In this document: positions 5,373 through 12,694 of the stretch, piece by piece
How the letters are laid out: the number at the start of each line of letters is the position of its first letter
How positions within the stretch are numbered: position 1 is the first letter of the stretch
Assembly: GCA_009379825.1 (NCBI GenBank)
Contig: WHTA01000041.1
Coordinates: forward strand, 1 to 48,932
DNA: 48,932 nt
From: Streptosporangiales bacterium
GTDB taxonomy: Bacteria; Actinomycetota; Actinomycetes; Streptosporangiales; WHST01
Reading direction: 5' to 3'
Notes under the pieces: generated by a model
Databases searched by the model: none
What the model was told of the DNA's origin: nothing
Seen by the model: only the letters and a program-made list of their open reading frames with translations
Position numbers and translations under genes: made by a program

Positions 5373-5549
5373 AGCGCGCGGAGCAGGCGGCCGGACACCC
5401 GGTTTCCGGTCCACCGGGCCGTTGGGCGTGCAGATCCCGTCGATCGGCCGTTCGGCGCGGTACATTGTCGCAACCTTGTCGGCCACTTACCATGCGGCCA
5501 GCGCAGGGCGCCTGTGTGTGTGGTACGAGCCAGGGTGGAGGGGACCTGC

Positions 5550-6605
5550 ATGGCGCGGAAGAACACGAAGGCCGCGACGTCAACCAAGTCAGGCGGCCGG
5601 ACGGCGGCGAGCGCGCGCTCATCGGCCGCCTCGACCGGCGTCTCCGCCAAACCAGCTGCCGCGAAACAGGCAGCCGCGAAGAAGGCCGCTCCACCTGCGA
5701 AGAAGGCGGCGGCGAAGAAGGCTGCGCCGCCTGCGAAGAAGGCTGCGGCGAAGAAGCAGGCACCGGCCAAGAAGGCGGCGGCGAAGAAGGCCGCTCCACC
5801 TGCGAAGAAGGCGGCGGCGAAGAAGGCGGCGCCGCCTGCGAAGAAGGCTGCGGCGAAGAAGCAGGCACCGGCCAAGAAGATCGCTGCCAAGCAGGCGCCG
5901 GCCAAGAGGACTGCTGCCAAGGAGGCGCCGGCGAAGAAGGCGGCTCCGGCCAAGGCGACGGCGAAGAAGGCTGCGCCGCCTGCGAAGAAGGCGGCGGCCA
6001 AGAAGGCGCAAGCGAAGAAGGCGCAAGCGAAGAAGGCGGCGGCCAAGAAGGCGCAAGCGAAGAAGAAGGCGCCAGCGAAGAAGCAGGCGCCAGCCAAGAA
6101 GACCGCGGCGAAGAAGGCCGCACCCGCCAAGAAGGCGATGGCCGCGGCCAAGGCGGCGCCGGCCGAGCCGGCCGCTGAGAAGGCGGCGCCCGCGAAGAAG
6201 GCGCCGGCCAAGAAGGCGGGCCCGGCGCCGGATCGGGTGTCGGGGTTCTCCGCCGCGGAGTTGGCTGAGATCCGGCGGCGGTTGGCGGCGGAGAGCGAGG
6301 CGCTGACCGGTGAGGTCAGCAAGGCCGAGTCCGAGCTTGCCGACCGGTTGCGGGATGGTGGCGACAGCGTCGGGGAGGACCAGGCGGACCAGGGCAGCAA
6401 GGCGTCCGAGCGGGAGCACGAGATCTCGCTGGCGAACAATGCGCGCGACCTGATCGCGCAGAACGAGCGGGCCATCCAGCGCATCGACGTCGGGGAGTAC
6501 GGGGTCTGCGAGAGCTGCGGCGGCCCGATCGGCAAGGAGCGGCTGCGGGTGTTCCCGCGCGCCACGTTGTGTGTCGCCTGCAAGCAGCGCGAGGAGCGCC
6601 GGTAG
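5550..6605 (+). CDS. TraR/DksA zinc-finger protein with Lys/Ala-rich N-terminal tail
   Basis: A 351-residue protein. Residues about 1-230 are an extremely Lys/Ala/Pro-rich tail built from AAKKA and PAKKA units, resembling histone H1 and mycobacterial HupB tails. Residues about 235-351 are a TraR/DksA-type domain: a helical hairpin (AELAEIRRRLAAE) and a C-terminal zinc finger CESCGG...CVAC near the end. DksA relatives bind RNA polymerase through the secondary channel; the basic tail would favour nucleic-acid binding. Both roles are inferred here. ATG 5550 is used, preceded by GGTGGAGGGG, in preference to an in-frame start at 5514 with a poorer ribosome site. The tail DNA contains a near-exact 105-bp tandem duplication. 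It lies directly upstream of lspA, as in many actinobacteria. Confidence 0.88.
   Translation: MARKNTKAATSTKSGGRTAASARSSAASTGVSAKPAAAKQAAAKKAAPPAKKAAAKKAAPPAKKAAAKKQAPAKKAAAKKAAPPAKKAAAKKAAPPAKKAAAKKQAPAKKIAAKQAPAKRTAAKEAPAKKAAPAKATAKKAAPPAKKAAAKKAQAKKAQAKKAAAKKAQAKKKAPAKKQAPAKKTAAKKAAPAKKAMAAAKAAPAEPAAEKAAPAKKAPAKKAGPAPDRVSGFSAAELAEIRRRLAAESEALTGEVSKAESELADRLRDGGDSVGEDQADQGSKASEREHEISLANNARDLIAQNERAIQRIDVGEYGVCESCGGPIGKERLRVFPRATLCVACKQREERR
5686..5895 (+). repeat. 105-bp tandem repeat inside the Lys/Ala-rich tail
   Basis: Two head-to-tail units, 5686-5790 and 5791-5895, both starting CCGCTCCACCTGCGAAGAAG. About the first 90 bp are identical apart from one base; the ends then diverge. The period is 35 codons, so the reading frame is kept and the basic tail is lengthened. 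Confidence 0.85.
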
Positions 6606-8394: not shown

Positions 8395-8406
8395 TAAGCT
8401 GGCGTC
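8395..8406 (+). promoter_or_regulatory. Leaderless-type promoter -10 element
   Basis: TAAGCT (8395-8400) fits the actinobacterial TANNNT -10 box and ends 6 nt before GTG 8407, so transcription would start at or next to that GTG. No strong -35 box is seen. This spacing is the usual mark of a leaderless mRNA and is the main support for translating the short ORF at 8407. Confidence 0.55.
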
Positions 8407-8463
8407 GTGGCCAAGGTGTATTTCGCGTTTACCGAGCCGGTTCGACCCGGCGCGGTCACGTGA
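8407..8463 (+). CDS. Putative aromatic-rich leader peptide (18 aa)
   Basis: An 18-codon ORF, VAKVYFAFTEPVRPGAVT, beginning with GTG at a predicted transcription start (TAAGCT ends 6 nt upstream) and ending TGA 8461-8463. Codons 5-8 are Tyr-Phe-Ala-Phe: three aromatic codons in four, highly unusual for so short a peptide. A strong hairpin (8499-8521) followed by a T-rich run lies 36 nt downstream, and the next gene encodes a chorismate-mutase fusion. The arrangement matches a classical transcription attenuator that senses charged tRNA-Tyr or tRNA-Phe. GCCGGTTCG (8436-8444) can pair with CGAACCGGC (8487-8495), and a ribosome stalled at the aromatic codons would cover the first arm. I could not find a convincing antiterminator, so the mechanism is inferred. 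Confidence 0.55.
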   Translation: MAKVYFAFTEPVRPGAVT

Positions 8464-8498
8464 GCATGCGCTGACCCGCGAACGGCCGAACCGGCAGA

Positions 8499-8526
8499 AG
8501 CCAGAGGGCGCTCCTCTGGCTTTCTT
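8499..8526 (+). terminator. Hairpin with T-rich tail, possible attenuator terminator
   Basis: AGCCAGAGG (8499-8507) pairs perfectly with CCTCTGGCT (8513-8521) around a 5-nt loop, followed by TTCTTC. It lies between the 18-codon leader ORF and the gene starting at 8590, on the plus strand. It could be an attenuator terminator for 8590, or a plain terminator for the upstream lspA-rluA transcript. Confidence 0.6.
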
Positions 8527-8589
8527 CATGAGATCGGTCGGTTTCGCCATGGTGGGCCACGGAACCGGCCCCGGTAACGAGGAGGGACC

Positions 8590-9522
8590 GTGACCCACGA
8601 GGTTCGTATAGGAGATGTCCGGGTAGGCGCTGGCGCCGTGCCCGTGTTCGCGGGCGCAGGCACCGGGGCGACGGTGACCGTCGTCAGCCTGCGCCGCCAC
8701 CACGGCACGCGCCCGGCGGCCGAGGAGCTGCGCCGCACCAGGGCGCACGTGACCGGGCCGCTGTTGGTCGAGCCGTTCTCCGCGCGCGACCTGCCGGCCA
8801 TCGCGGCGCACGCCGACGGTGTGCTCGTCGGCGCCGGGTGGATGCAGGACTTCCAGCTGCTGCGGGCGATCGGCCGGTTGCGGATGCCGGTACTCCTACA
8901 GCGCGGCACGTACGCCACCTCGGACGAGTGGCTCGCCGCCGCCGAGTACTGCACGGCCGAGGACGACGACCAGGTCATGCTCTGCGAGGGCGGCAGCCGC
9001 AGCAGCACCGTGGACCACCTGGTGGTCGACCTGCGGCTGGTCAGCCAGACCCGGGCGAAGACGTCCAGGCCGGTGGTGGTGGACGTGAGCAGCGACCCGC
9101 AGCTCGCCGCGGCCGCCGTCGCCGCCGGCGCGGACGGGCTGTTCCTCGGCGAGAGCGTGGACGCGGCCACCGTGGCGCGGATCACCGAGCAGGCGACCGT
9201 GCTCGCGCCGCTGCTCCGCGACGAGGAGCCGACCAACCTGGTTGACGGCCGCGCGGCCATCGACCGCGCGGACGCCGCGATCGCCACCGTGCTCGAGCAC
9301 CGGGCGAAGGTCGCGGCGGCGATCCAGCGGATCAAGCCGGTCGGCGGCCGCGCCGGGCGCGACATGACGAGGGAGCGCGCGATCGTCGAGGCGATGGCGA
9401 GGCGCGCGCCGCGGCTGGGATCTGACCGGCTGGCGCCGGTCGTGCAGGCAATGATCCTCGCCGGTCTGGACGCGGCCGCGGACGAGGAGGAGCACGCCGC
9501 CGAGGACGTCGCCCAGCCGTAG
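8590..9522 (+). CDS. DAHP-synthase-like domain fused to AroQ-type chorismate mutase
   Basis: A 310-residue fusion. Residues about 15-205 resemble the second half of a DAHP synthase barrel: VLVGAGWMQDFQLLRAIG, VLLQRG, EWLAAAEY, VMLCEGGSR and AAGADGL match the usual order. Key catalytic positions are changed, however. The GPCS metal-ligand motif is absent, GARNMQN reads GAGWMQD, KRG reads QRG, CERG reads CEGG, and the DPSH metal histidine reads DVSS. The barrel is therefore probably inactive. Residues about 217-300 are an AroQ chorismate mutase in which R221, R238, K249, D258, R261 and E262 align with the active-site residues of the E. coli enzyme. Chorismate to prephenate is the likely reaction, toward Phe and Tyr. 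GTG 8590 follows GAGGAGGG. A putative Tyr/Phe attenuator lies upstream. Confidence 0.8.
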   Translation: MTHEVRIGDVRVGAGAVPVFAGAGTGATVTVVSLRRHHGTRPAAEELRRTRAHVTGPLLVEPFSARDLPAIAAHADGVLVGAGWMQDFQLLRAIGRLRMPVLLQRGTYATSDEWLAAAEYCTAEDDDQVMLCEGGSRSSTVDHLVVDLRLVSQTRAKTSRPVVVDVSSDPQLAAAAVAAGADGLFLGESVDAATVARITEQATVLAPLLRDEEPTNLVDGRAAIDRADAAIATVLEHRAKVAAAIQRIKPVGGRAGRDMTRERAIVEAMARRAPRLGSDRLAPVVQAMILAGLDAAADEEEHAAEDVAQP

Positions 9523-9642: not shown

Positions 9643-9660
9643 GTGCGTGTCTCGACGCAC
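9643..9660. promoter_or_regulatory. Palindrome upstream of the TRAP operon
   Basis: GTGCGT (9643-9648) and ACGCAC (9655-9660) form an inverted repeat with a 6-nt spacer in the 201-bp gap before the TRAP binding-protein gene. It could be an operator for an unseen regulator. There is no second copy nearby to support this. Confidence 0.3.
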
Positions 9661-9723
9661 CACGTGCGATATCCCATGTGGCGGGACGTCGGGTTCGGCA
9701 CCTACGACGATGTGGGAGCAGCA

Positions 9724-10782
9724 ATGGTCGGTAAGCGACTGCTCGGCGCATTCGGTGCGCTGGCACTTGGGTTGTCTCTGACGGGCTGCGGTCTGGCCGA
9801 AGAAGGTGGTGGGGGCGGCGACAAGGTCGTCCTGCGGCTGTCGCACCAGTGGCCGGCAGTGAACAAGAAGGGCGAGGGCGACTTCCGCTCCGTCATCGCG
9901 CAACGCTTCGCCGACGACGTGAAGAAGCGCACCGACGGCGAGGTCGTGGTCAAGATCCACGCGGCGAACTCGCTGATCGAGGACCCGATCCAGCAGTACA
10001 CGGCCATCAACAAGGGCACCGCCGACATGTCCGTCTACCCGCTCGACTACGCGGCGGGTGACGTGCCGGCGTTCAGCGTCACGCTGATGCCGGCCATGGT
10101 CCGCAACCACGAGCAGGCGCGGAAGTGGCAGAACGCGCAGATCGGCAAGGAAGTCGAGAAGCTCACCGAGGACAACGGCATCAAGGTCCTCACCTGGATC
10201 TGGAACGCCGGCGCGATCGGCAGCCGGAGCGCGGAGCCGATCGTCGCGCCTGACGACGTGAAGAAGGGCAACGTCACCAGGGCGGCCGGGCCGCGGATCG
10301 AGCAGATGCTGAAGAGCGTCGGGTTCGGCCTGTCGAGCATGCCGTCCTCGGAGATCTACAACGGCATGCAGACCGGCGTCCTGGACAGTGCGATCACCTC
10401 TACCTCGTCGTTCGGTTCCTACCGGCTGCATGAGCAGGTCAAGTCGTTCACTACGCCGACCGGTGGCAACACGTTCTGGTTCATGTTCGAGCCGCTCATC
10501 ATCGGTACGGAGCAGTTCGACGAGCTGACCAAGGAACAGCAGCAGGCCGTGGAGAAGGCGGGCGCGAACCTGCAGCAGTACGCGTACGAGGCGTCCGAGA
10601 AGGACGACACGCGGGTCGAGCAGCAGTTCAAGAAGGCCGGCGTGAAGGTCGTGCCGATGGACGACGCGTCGTACGAGAAGTGGCGGGAGAAGTCCGAGCC
10701 GGTCTGGGACGACTTCGCCAAGGAGGTCGAAGGCGGCCAGCGGCTCATCGACGAGGCGAAGAAGGTCGCCGACGAAGGCTAG
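9724..10782 (+). CDS. TRAP transporter substrate-binding lipoprotein (DctP family)
   Basis: A 352-residue extracytoplasmic receptor for a TRAP-type, ion-gradient-driven importer, usually of carboxylates. A lipoprotein signal peptide ends in the lipobox LTGC with the acylated Cys near residue 20. The mature part starts KVVLRLSHQWP, the usual first strand of the family, and has a DctP-like middle section (VTRAAGPRIEQMLKSVGF) where an Arg normally contacts the substrate carboxylate. ATG 9724, after GGGAG, is chosen because it yields a proper signal peptide; an in-frame start 81 bp upstream would bury it. The two membrane subunits follow at once. The ligand cannot be deduced. Confidence 0.92.
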   Translation: MVGKRLLGAFGALALGLSLTGCGLAEEGGGGGDKVVLRLSHQWPAVNKKGEGDFRSVIAQRFADDVKKRTDGEVVVKIHAANSLIEDPIQQYTAINKGTADMSVYPLDYAAGDVPAFSVTLMPAMVRNHEQARKWQNAQIGKEVEKLTEDNGIKVLTWIWNAGAIGSRSAEPIVAPDDVKKGNVTRAAGPRIEQMLKSVGFGLSSMPSSEIYNGMQTGVLDSAITSTSSFGSYRLHEQVKSFTTPTGGNTFWFMFEPLIIGTEQFDELTKEQQQAVEKAGANLQQYAYEASEKDDTRVEQQFKKAGVKVVPMDDASYEKWREKSEPVWDDFAKEVEGGQRLIDEAKKVADEG

Positions 10783-10793
10783 GGTGCTGCGCG

Positions 10794-11339
10794 TTGAGCG
10801 AATCCGGGCAGCGACGCCGAGCGTGGCCGCTGCGCGTCGTGGAGCGACTGTCGGAGCTGGCCGGCTACACGAGCGCGGTCTTCATCCTCGCCGCGGTGCT
10901 CGTCGTCTGCTACGGCGTGCTGTTGCGCTACTTCATCGGCGCGTCGACCGTCTGGCAGACCGAGCTCTCCATCTACCTGCTGATCTACGCCGCATTCGTC
11001 GGTGCGGCTTACGGCCTGAAGCACGGTGACCACGTCGCGATGGAGATCGTCGCGTCGCGGTTCTCCGGGCGCGCCCGCGACGTGATCAGGCTGGTGGTCG
11101 GGGTGCTCGGCCTCGGCCTTGCGGTGGTCATCCTCGTGGTGGCGTGGGGGTTCTGGTGGGAGGTCGTGGAGAGCGGCCGGCGGTCGGGCACGGCGTGGAA
11201 CCCGCCGCTCGCGGTGCCGTACGCGATCCTGCCGCTCGGCATGTTGCTGGTCTCGCTGCAGTACCTGGTGATCCTCACGGACACCGTCGGGCGGCTCGGG
11301 AAGGGTAACCGGGCCGACGGGGCGGAGGCCGGCCGGTGA
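10794..11339 (+). CDS. TRAP transporter small permease (DctQ family)
   Basis: A protein of about 181 residues with four predicted transmembrane helices, for example SAVFILAAVLVVCYGVLLRY and the AVPYAILPLGMLLVSL stretch, as in the DctQ small subunit that clamps the large permease. The WQTELSIYLLIYAAF segment is a family hallmark. TTG 10794 is used: it follows AGGG with suitable spacing and lies 11 bp after the binding-protein stop. A downstream GTG in RVVERL is an alternative. The end overlaps the large permease start by GTGA, so the two are translationally coupled. Confidence 0.88.
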   Translation: MSESGQRRRAWPLRVVERLSELAGYTSAVFILAAVLVVCYGVLLRYFIGASTVWQTELSIYLLIYAAFVGAAYGLKHGDHVAMEIVASRFSGRARDVIRLVVGVLGLGLAVVILVVAWGFWWEVVESGRRSGTAWNPPLAVPYAILPLGMLLVSLQYLVILTDTVGRLGKGNRADGAEAGR

Positions 11340-12694
11340 GTGTCGTCCTGATCGCGCTCATCGTCGGCGCCGTGCTGCTCGTGCTGCTGGTGCTCGGGGT
11401 GCCGGTCGCGTTCGCCCTCGGGCTCACCGCGGTGATCTCCATCGCGCTCTTCCTCACCGGCGACGAGTTCGGCTACCTGGCCGACCTGACGTTCGAGTCG
11501 CTGAACAGCTTCTCGCTGCTCGCCATCCCGCTGTTCGTCCTGATGGGTGCGATCTTCGGGCAGTCGAAGGCGAGCCGCGACCTGCTCGAGGCGGCGCACG
11601 CCTGGATCGGCCGGGTGCGCGGCGGTCTCGGCATCAGCTCGGTGCTCTCCTGCGCCGCGTTCGCCGCGCTGACCGGGTCGAGCCCGGCGACGTCCGCGGC
11701 GATCGGCCGGATCGCGATCCCCGAGATGGTGCGGCGCGGCTACCCGAACGGGGTGGCGACGGGCGCGATCGTCGCCGGCGGCACCCTCGGCATCCTGATC
11801 CCGCCCAGCGTGACCCTGATCCTGTACGGCGTCGCCACCGAGACCTCCGTCGGGCGGCTGTTCCTCGCCGGCGTCGGGCCCGGCCTGCTGGTCACGGCGT
11901 TATTCTGCGTCTGGATCGTGGTGGCGCTCGGGCTGTCGCGCGGGCGTACGACGCCCGCCGCCGCCACACCCACCGGCTCGGCGGGGGAGCTGCCCGCAGT
12001 GACCGAGGTCGAGGCGTACGCGTGGCGGCGCAGGTTCGGGCTGCTGACCAAGACGCTGCCGTTCATCCTGCTGATCGCTGGCGTGCTGTTCGTGCTCTAC
12101 GCGGGGGTGGCGACGCCGAGCGAGGCGGCCGCCATGGGGTGCCTGTTCGCCGTCGTGCTGGTTGCCGTGATCTACCGCTCCGTGACCGTGCGCAGCCTGC
12201 TCCAGGCGGCCCTGGAGACGACCCGCACGAGCACGATGATCCTGATGATCGTGGCGTTCTCCGCCGTGCTCGGGCAGGTGCTGAGCTTCCTCGGCATCCC
12301 GCAGGAGCTGGCCGCCGTGGTCGCAGACCTGGAGGTGAACAAGTGGGTCATCTTCCTGGCGATGAACCTGCTGTTCCTCGTGCTCGGCCTGTTCATCCCA
12401 CCGGTGGCCATCATCCTCATCACCATGCCGGTGCTGTTCCCGATCATCACCGAGCTGGGCTTCGACCCGGTCTGGTTCGGCGTGGTGATGACGCTGAACA
12501 TGGAGATGGGGCTGATCACACCGCCGGTTGGCCTGAACCTCTACGTCGTGCAGGGCATCGCACCCGAGATCCCGGCCAGGGACGTGCTGACCGGGGCGCT
12601 GCCTTACGTGGCGGTACTTGCGGTGGGCATCGTGCTGCTCGTCGTGTTCCCCGACATCGTCACCTGGTTGCCCAACCAGATCCACGGCGGCTGA
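11336..12694 (+). CDS. TRAP transporter large permease (DctM family)
   Basis: A 452-residue polytopic membrane protein that forms the transport path of the TRAP system. It has the DctM pattern: an N-terminal helix with GVPVAFALG, the motif ALTGSSPATSAAIG near residue 110 followed by GILIPPSVTLILYG, and the C-terminal counterpart EMGLITPPVGLNLYV. The two halves with repeated GxxxPPS/PPVG motifs are typical of this elevator-type family. GTG 11336 overlaps the dctQ-like stop by 4 bp. It completes the three-gene set 9724-12694; no regulator is adjacent. Confidence 0.93.
   Translation: MSVVLIALIVGAVLLVLLVLGVPVAFALGLTAVISIALFLTGDEFGYLADLTFESLNSFSLLAIPLFVLMGAIFGQSKASRDLLEAAHAWIGRVRGGLGISSVLSCAAFAALTGSSPATSAAIGRIAIPEMVRRGYPNGVATGAIVAGGTLGILIPPSVTLILYGVATETSVGRLFLAGVGPGLLVTALFCVWIVVALGLSRGRTTPAAATPTGSAGELPAVTEVEAYAWRRRFGLLTKTLPFILLIAGVLFVLYAGVATPSEAAAMGCLFAVVLVAVIYRSVTVRSLLQAALETTRTSTMILMIVAFSAVLGQVLSFLGIPQELAAVVADLEVNKWVIFLAMNLLFLVLGLFIPPVAIILITMPVLFPIITELGFDPVWFGVVMTLNMEMGLITPPVGLNLYVVQGIAPEIPARDVLTGALPYVAVLAVGIVLLVVFPDIVTWLPNQIHGG

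Follow-up and report, generated by a model that had tools for sequence, protein, structure and literature searches.

A chorismate mutase joined to a degenerate type I-beta DAHP-synthase barrel behind an attenuator-like leader in Streptosporangiales

The window, meaning the whole 48,932-nucleotide stretch of Streptosporangiales DNA that was analysed, contains a fusion gene in which a DAHP-synthase-like barrel is followed by a chorismate mutase (CM). The gene and its two domains are as follows.

8590..9522, + strand: pseudo-DAHP-synthase/chorismate mutase fusion gene, GTG start at 8590, stop at 9522, 310 aa
8590..9219, + strand: degenerate type I-beta DAHP-synthase barrel, residues 1-210, delimited by AlphaFold2 model, structure alignment and motif table
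9232..9486, + strand: AroQ chorismate mutase domain, residues 215-299, delimited by Pfam CM_2, alignment to 1ECM and the long-short-long helix pattern in the model

The GTG start is preceded by the stretch GAGGAGGG. Both Pfam and the AlphaFold2 model place the barrel first and the CM second in one chain, which shares 78% and 79% identity with the orthologues from the genus's two other genomes. Pfam DAHP_synth_1 matched residues 52-186 with 68.9 bits (cut-off 25.5) and CM_2 matched residues 221-281 with 33.9 bits (cut-off 27). Among NCBIfam models, those for bifunctional and type I-beta DAHP synthases ranked highest, yet all stayed below their cut-offs, as did the NCBIfam CM models that also matched. 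Of the solved sequences, type I-beta synthases came closest, the CM-synthase fusions of Listeria and Geobacillus among them. Between the fusion gene and the gene for DNA polymerase III alpha lies an operon for a TRAP transporter (DctP, DctQ, DctM; 9643-12694). The window also encodes, at 5514-6605, a DksA/TraR zinc-finger protein whose N-terminal stretch is long, histone-like and rich in Lys, Ala and Pro.

The AlphaFold2 model of the fusion protein, made as a single chain from a 22-sequence orthologue alignment, had a pLDDT of 90.1 and a pTM of 0.84. VIA-align superposed residues 1-210 on 1vr6_B with Z 25.4 over 210 residues at 2.2 A, a comparison that scarcely probed the CM part, and Foldseek also put these residues on the type I-beta synthase fold. 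Eight barrel strands were counted by hand in the secondary structure of the model; helix alpha-1 is absent. The synthase motifs of the window barrel are altered throughout, with GPCS reading GAGT, KRG reading QRG, CERG reading CEGG and DPSH reading DVSS, and the KPRTS segment is deleted. The positions of the metal-ligand Cys, His and Glu are thus occupied by G, S and G, and the segment with the Asp ligand is deleted relative to the intact fusion L113 described below, the only sequence against which the Asp column is informative. In an alignment of 30 pseudo-barrels and 12 intact type I-beta sequences, the ligand Cys was found in none of the pseudo-barrels and the DPSH His and the Glu in one each, both in L013. 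The KRG Lys and the CERG Arg were gone from all 30, and the KRG Arg and the CERG Glu were retained in all 30. The intact sequences had the Cys and both Lys in 12/12 and the His and the Glu in 11/12.

From these losses, the window barrel is very likely unable to make DAHP any longer. As its synthase half is without the catalytic residues, the protein does not, by sequence, belong with bifunctional DAHP synthase-CM enzymes in which both halves are catalytic. The original prediction, a DAHP-synthase pseudo-domain and a CM in a single chain, is borne out by the motif loss, the fold and the kept CM residues. Its missing metal-ligand Cys and His and its altered KRG and CERG were all confirmed, with the KPRTS deletion as an addition, and two of the checks that it proposed agreed as well: both families matched above the Pfam cut-offs, and the modelled barrel has an aligned sequence devoid of metal ligands. 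That the barrel still catalyses, through a non-canonical aldol reaction or metal-free DAHP synthesis, is scarcely credible; the fold is kept and L013 alone has His and Glu at ligand positions, but the window lacks the Cys, His and Glu ligands, the KRG lysine and KPRTS, and the ligands are as rare in the other pseudo-barrels as counted above. Besides the fusion, the own genome encodes a type II DAHP synthase and a type I-beta one that is intact, so the dead barrel is unneeded for DAHP, which these two genes would supply.

The pattern of loss also bears on whether the barrel is an allosteric sensor, where PEP, E4P, Phe, Tyr or prephenate, bound at the old active site or its rim, would alter CM activity. 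The uniform retention of the KRG Arg and the CERG Glu beside the uniform loss of the KRG Lys and the CERG Arg would fit such a role, and cross-talk is known in synthase-CM fusions, according to the available text of PMC12202928. Even so, a sensor is distinctly unlikely, given that the barrel has lost KPRTS and most of its catalytic motifs and that the retained residues might be structural.

The CM half is better preserved. A profile of 30 CM domains aligned with 1ECM placed R221, R238, K249, D258, R261 and E262 of the window CM on the columns of Arg11, Arg28, Lys39, Asp48, Arg51 and Glu52 of the E. coli enzyme (EcCM), all of them invariant in 30/30 domains. In a register extended by hand, EcCM Ser84 and Gln88 fell on G292 and A296, and the CM site is therefore not fully EcCM-like. 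In the same register, the Ser84 column was invariably Gly and the Gln88 column nearly always Ala across the 30 CM domains; the Listeria fusion has Gln at the latter column. Of the intact AroQ domain originally predicted, the six catalytic residues do align, but the absence of Ser84 and Gln88 equivalents had been overlooked, as had the wider family with its reduced forms, the want of an AroH enzyme in this genus and the leader. The CM part of the model has three helices, as an AroQ domain should, with a long third helix; a single chain was modelled, and the AroQ domain probably dimerises. In the E. coli enzyme, Gln88Ala costs CM a factor of 2x10^4, as given in the available part of PMC4281200. 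On sequence grounds it is likely, with good confidence, that the window protein is a working chorismate mutase; its activity is still unproven because the Ser84 and Gln88 equivalents are missing.

The M. tuberculosis CM, an AroQ-delta enzyme, is likewise without Ser84 and Gln88 equivalents and has Arg in place of the Lys (PMC4281200 and PMC7762937, as far as their accessible text goes). The AroQ-delta CMs of M. tuberculosis and C. glutamicum thus resemble the window CM in being actinobacterial and in lacking these two residues, but, in the same accessible text, they differ from it in that CM and synthase are separate proteins, the barrel is type II, Arg replaces Lys39, Val replaces Asp48 and there is a C-terminal Arg-Gly dyad. 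Two of these AroQ-delta marks are absent from the window CM, which keeps the Lys (K249, not Arg) and has no Arg-Gly dyad near its C-terminus; carrying Lys and Asp and lacking the dyad, it is not AroQ-delta by these marks. The suggested likeness to the actinobacterial complexes of CM with type II DAHP synthase did not hold up: the barrel is type I-beta, both AroQ-delta marks are absent and, among intact relatives that carry a CM, the nearest is the single-chain fusion L113. A related reading, that the window CM acts chiefly in complex with the separate type II synthase in AroQ-delta style and that its own barrel is incidental, is unlikely. It would account for the missing Ser84 and Gln88 equivalents, which the synthase-dependent CM of M. 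tuberculosis lacks too (available text of PMC4281200 and PMC7762937), and the genome has a type II synthase that scores 542 bits against the solved AroG of M. tuberculosis. Against it, the Lys and Asp that are replaced in AroQ-delta are present, the dyad is absent, the third helix is long, and the type II synthase, although it keeps residues 396 and 399 (Glu, Arg), has Gln-Gln at 461-462 (ungapped extension) for the CM-contacting Arg-Asp of the M. tuberculosis enzyme and a tail five residues longer.

In all, 61 genomes were compared, the own genome and 60 relatives. In the own genome, the Pfam CM_2 search, NF005894 (E <= 0.001) and TIGR01808 (E <= 1) each matched the fusion gene only. An AroH-type CM was found in 57 of the 61 genomes, the exceptions being G039 and the three genomes of the window's genus (G000, G001 and G002, with completeness of 100, 97 and 77%), none of which gave an AroH match. 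Both the fusion family and AroH were present in 44 genomes, AroH without the family in 13 (G036 and G056 of these hold another CM_2 match), the family without AroH in 4 and neither in 0; further CM_2 genes are present in some genomes. In the window's genus, the fusion family is thus the only CM found by CM_2 and AroH searches of the three genomes, and the window protein would be the CM of Phe/Tyr synthesis. The same claim from Pfam CM_2 alone was rejected as weak, since 11/61 genomes have no CM_2 match; the AroH search then found this enzyme in each of the 11 but not in the window's genus. The A3 re-search of 12 genomes at E <= 10 gave matches in 4, with a best E of 0.06. G002 has part of the CM end a second time, 75% identical and at a contig edge (C314:1-366).

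CMs of the window type occur in 48 of the 61 genomes, 22 with barrel sequence and 26 without a barrel match, by our own reading of the matches and with ORFs read for part of the 26 barrel-less genomes only. Named members with barrel sequence belong to Actinoallomurus, Streptosporangium, Microbispora, Microtetraspora, Planobispora, Nonomuraea and Herbidospora; three Actinomadura have CM-only forms. As 26 of 48 family genomes have the CM and gave no match to a barrel, a barrel is not a fixed part of the CM family. In a collection search with an alignment as query, 80 of 426 matches were kept; the single window protein as query to the collection gave 100 pattern matches, none of them a relative. 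Across 296 genomes of the class, a further search found a match in 75 and added two groups, f21 and f28. The group f21 is taken as Jiangellaceae because the L211 ORF is identical in reading to the L114 ORF from Haloactinopolyspora alba. Among its 13 ORFs read, L218 has a full pseudo-barrel and the rest have a shorter remnant, by eye mostly of about 100 residues. In L206-L212, L214-L217 and L219, the remnant before the CM looks by eye like the first strand plus the last two beta-alpha units; a model of the f21 remnant had a mean pLDDT of 54 and a pTM of 0.33, and a folded half-barrel is not claimed on these values. In the ten f28 ORFs read (L220-L229), a GNAT-like domain precedes the CM where the barrel would be. 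Pfam, run on two of these, verified GNAT and CM for L225 and matched nothing at the coordinates used for L224. An rluD gene lies close upstream of the CM gene in the window, L003 and L004, in L114, L206, L211, L218 and L219 of f21 and in 10/10 f28 loci; for the Streptosporangiaceae fusions, the 1.5-4 kb of flanking sequence retrieved contained no rluD.

This range of forms raises the main rival to a supporting role, namely that the barrel is a decaying relic with no role beyond sparing the mutase harm, lost lineage by lineage. We regard this as possible, if doubtful. Full pseudo-barrels, a truncated 256-residue form (L018, L019), the f21 remnant and CM-only forms coexist among the relatives, as decay would predict, some pseudo-barrels carry an insert of about 100 residues or large deletions, and AroH is also present in 44 of the 48 family genomes. 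Selection was assessed in 16 sequence pairs, which share sequences and are not independent. The dN/dS of the barrel was 0.17-0.54, with the upper 95% bootstrap bound below 1 in 15/16, and that of the CM 0.08-0.24, the barrel exceeding the CM in 16/16. For the window and L004 the values were 0.23 (pseudo-barrel) and 0.20 (CM), and the intact type I-beta barrel of the same genome pair (G000-G001, one pair) gave 0.18. The barrel is under purifying selection, looser than that on the CM. The excess over the CM would suit a relic, but dN/dS well below 1 in most pairs would not, nor would the confidently predicted fold, the invariance in 22/22 of barrel positions such as E61, R105, E133, D147, P161 and A178-L184, or the genus's own record: the big insertions and deletions lie outside the window's genus, in whose three genomes the barrel is kept and aligns without internal gaps. 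A dN/dS below 1 indicates constraint on the barrel and is no proof of a scaffold role, nor of the regulating or localising role originally suggested.

A tree of 89 barrels was built with a quick search; it included 10 pseudo-barrel rows of unusual composition and left out L009, L012, L015, L016, L018, L019, L021, L109, L112 and the f21 remnants. All 23 pseudo-barrels in this unrooted tree fell on one side of a branch with SH-aLRT 100, and the 23 together with L113 and L158 formed one side of another branch with SH-aLRT 97. L113 (3950-5056), known from one 14 kb contig of a Dormibacterota MAG, encodes a 368-residue synthase-CM fusion with the same domain order as the window protein, a linker alignable with that of the window family (VLAPMLR / VLAPLLR) and a barrel on the same side of the 97-supported branch; it differs in that its motifs are intact (GPC, KPRT, LKRG, CERG, DPSH, ESHP). 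The barrel of the window family would have begun as the synthase part of an enzyme that joined type I-beta DAHP synthase and chorismate mutase activities. In the CM tree, which has 85 columns and carries a long-branch warning, the L113 CM was a long branch away from the base of the family, and the tree was used solely for the finding that barrel-bearing and barrel-less forms are interspersed. The simplest history is a single bifunctional ancestor in which the synthase died once, with repeated reduction or loss; horizontal transfer is possible. A second intact synthase-CM fusion was found in L123 (Paradesulfitobacterium). When 296 genomes of the phylum were searched for more fusions of the L113 kind, 63 gave matches at E <= 1e-70; those listed end by residue 282 of 368, and therefore none of them spans the CM. 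The intact fusions L113 and L123 lie beyond the periodontal pathogens to which PMC12202928, in its available text, ties the active form.

Upstream of the fusion gene, a leader was identified with the following features.

8395..8400, + strand: promoter-like -10 hexamer TAAGCT, 6 nt ahead of the start codon of the leader; TAnnnT conserved in the loci
8407..8463, + strand: leader peptide ORF MAKVYFAFTEPVRPGAVT, conserved; the transcript is probably leaderless, with this ORF at its 5' end
8436..8444, + strand: leader RNA segment 1, able to pair with 8487-8495 (9 bp when 8434-8500 is folded)
8487..8495, + strand: leader RNA segment 3, partner of 8436-8444 (fold and consensus helix 1)
8497..8527, + strand: intrinsic-terminator-like hairpin (11 bp; consensus helix 2), then a T-rich stretch

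An ORF of 16-21 residues containing F-x-x-P, the motif used as search criterion, was present in 49 of 64 upstream regions and missing at L017, L018, L019, L112, L219 and ten GNAT-CM loci. Scoring was done on 48 leader loci, L109 and L112 having been dropped as duplicates of L009 and L019. In all 48, TAnnnT, which was not a criterion, stands 6 or 7 nt ahead of the leader start codon (background 0.010 per position), and the motif Phe codon is TTT; length differences ahead of this codon preserve the frame. Tyr and Phe make up 51 of 257 leader residues ahead of the motif Phe, compared with 1.4% in the set's ORFs, a share inflated by an ORF choice that favoured Tyr/Phe. Besides the motif Phe, 35/48 leaders contain Tyr or Phe and 13/48 contain none. 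A consensus promoter scan, which also demands a -35, found no promoter at the leader, and a simple terminator scan did not flag the hairpin at 8497-8527.

The two leader helices covary. In an alignment (A5) of 35 sequences that leaves out 14 of the 49 leaders, and on which the structure was both derived and counted, 93.8% of cells were paired, with 67 both-side changes compared with 20.9 in shuffles and at most 15 in slid versions. Consensus helix 1 had 6/11 pairs changed on both sides and 95.0% of cells paired, and consensus helix 2, which is terminator-like, had 6/8 pairs changed on both sides. Stem 1:3 stops beside the terminator and does not overlap it. In the window, this stem is absent from the minimum-energy fold of 8407-8535, where a competing pairing is seen, and the L206 leader folded alone is no stabler than its shuffles (z -1.2). 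An RNA model, R1, built from the 35 sequences was searched against 25 sources (144,775 bases). Strong matches were the window, itself in the model, and the held-out L008, L021 and L157 (E 2e-28 to 3e-20). Weaker matches were obtained at L219 (E 0.002), on the opposite strand of leaders and at L038 (0.04), L002 (0.14), L113 (0.3) and L041 (0.9); L017-L019, L220, L221, L225 and the AroH loci L248-L251 gave no match at E <= 1. Two weak Rfam matches to the leader, below gathering scores, were judged to be chance.

The leader appears, from these sequence features, to be a conserved attenuator-like element with a Tyr/Phe-containing peptide, covarying stems and a terminator. Expression of the fusion gene may then be set by ribosome-dependent attenuation reading the leader Tyr/Phe codons. 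Like the actinobacterial trp and ilvB leader-peptide attenuators described in the available text of PMC1262725, it combines a short ORF, stems and a terminator; it differs from them in preceding a chorismate mutase, in its Tyr/Phe codons and in a start 6-7 nt past the -10 hexamer. That survey, from 2005, reports in its available text that no RNA structures are conserved ahead of the Phe and Tyr operons of actinobacteria, so the leader adds a candidate RNA control of Phe/Tyr synthesis where the survey found none. Our literature search, with most subscription journals outside its coverage, returned no work on leaderless attenuation for this order.

Fusions of synthase and CM are already known, and the dead-synthase version described here is a variant of them. 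The Bacillus/Listeria-type CM-DAHP synthases (3nvt, 5j6f) likewise have AroQ and a type I-beta barrel in one chain, but their CM is N-terminal and their barrel active. The DAH7PS-CM of P. gingivalis and P. nigrescens shares with the window protein the order of barrel then AroQ in one chain; by comparison, the window synthase is to all appearances dead, and helix alpha-1 and KPRTS are deleted. The window family spans an actinobacterial order, whereas the active DAH7PS-CM is tied to periodontal pathogens in the accessible text of PMC12202928. A literature search of titles and abstract openings, again with most subscription journals outside its coverage, found no description of a dead DAHP synthase-CM.

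When the domains of the P. gingivalis DAH7PS-CM are separated, the Km of the CM rises from 19.1 to 207 uM (about tenfold) and kcat is little altered (available text of PMC12202928). By analogy, this would be a precedent for a scaffold role, the barrel having been retained since it packs against the CM and aids stability or substrate binding. Taken by itself, such a supporting role has about even odds, the relic described above being its main rival. The reading that we prefer, a pathway CM of Phe/Tyr synthesis with the dead barrel kept as scaffold and with expression under attenuation control, seems to us evenly balanced between right and wrong. More tentatively, and with less than even confidence, the pseudo-synthase barrel may complete or gate a CM missing two standard active-site residues, in a family whose relatives span intact fusion, dead barrel, remnant and CM alone, and behind an aromatic attenuator of a kind not found at actinobacterial Phe/Tyr operons in the available text of the 2005 survey. 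The family offers a traceable case in which a catalytic domain of a bifunctional enzyme dies, persists and vanishes, which makes the retention of a dead domain testable, and it bears on how actinobacterial CMs function without the partnership of AroQ-delta and type II synthase.

The R1 match at L002 (E 0.14) points to the own intact type I-beta DAHP synthase gene, where the ORF upstream reads VLGRWYFLYDVGSESAGAARRFGPAPR. This region (L002:885-1037) contains a leader ORF whose codons include a Trp-Tyr-Phe-Leu-Tyr run, together with inverted repeats and a hairpin that has a T-run. A leader ORF like that of L002 was seen at L240, and a similar ORF in G001 has, by eye, Trp, Phe and Tyr codons.
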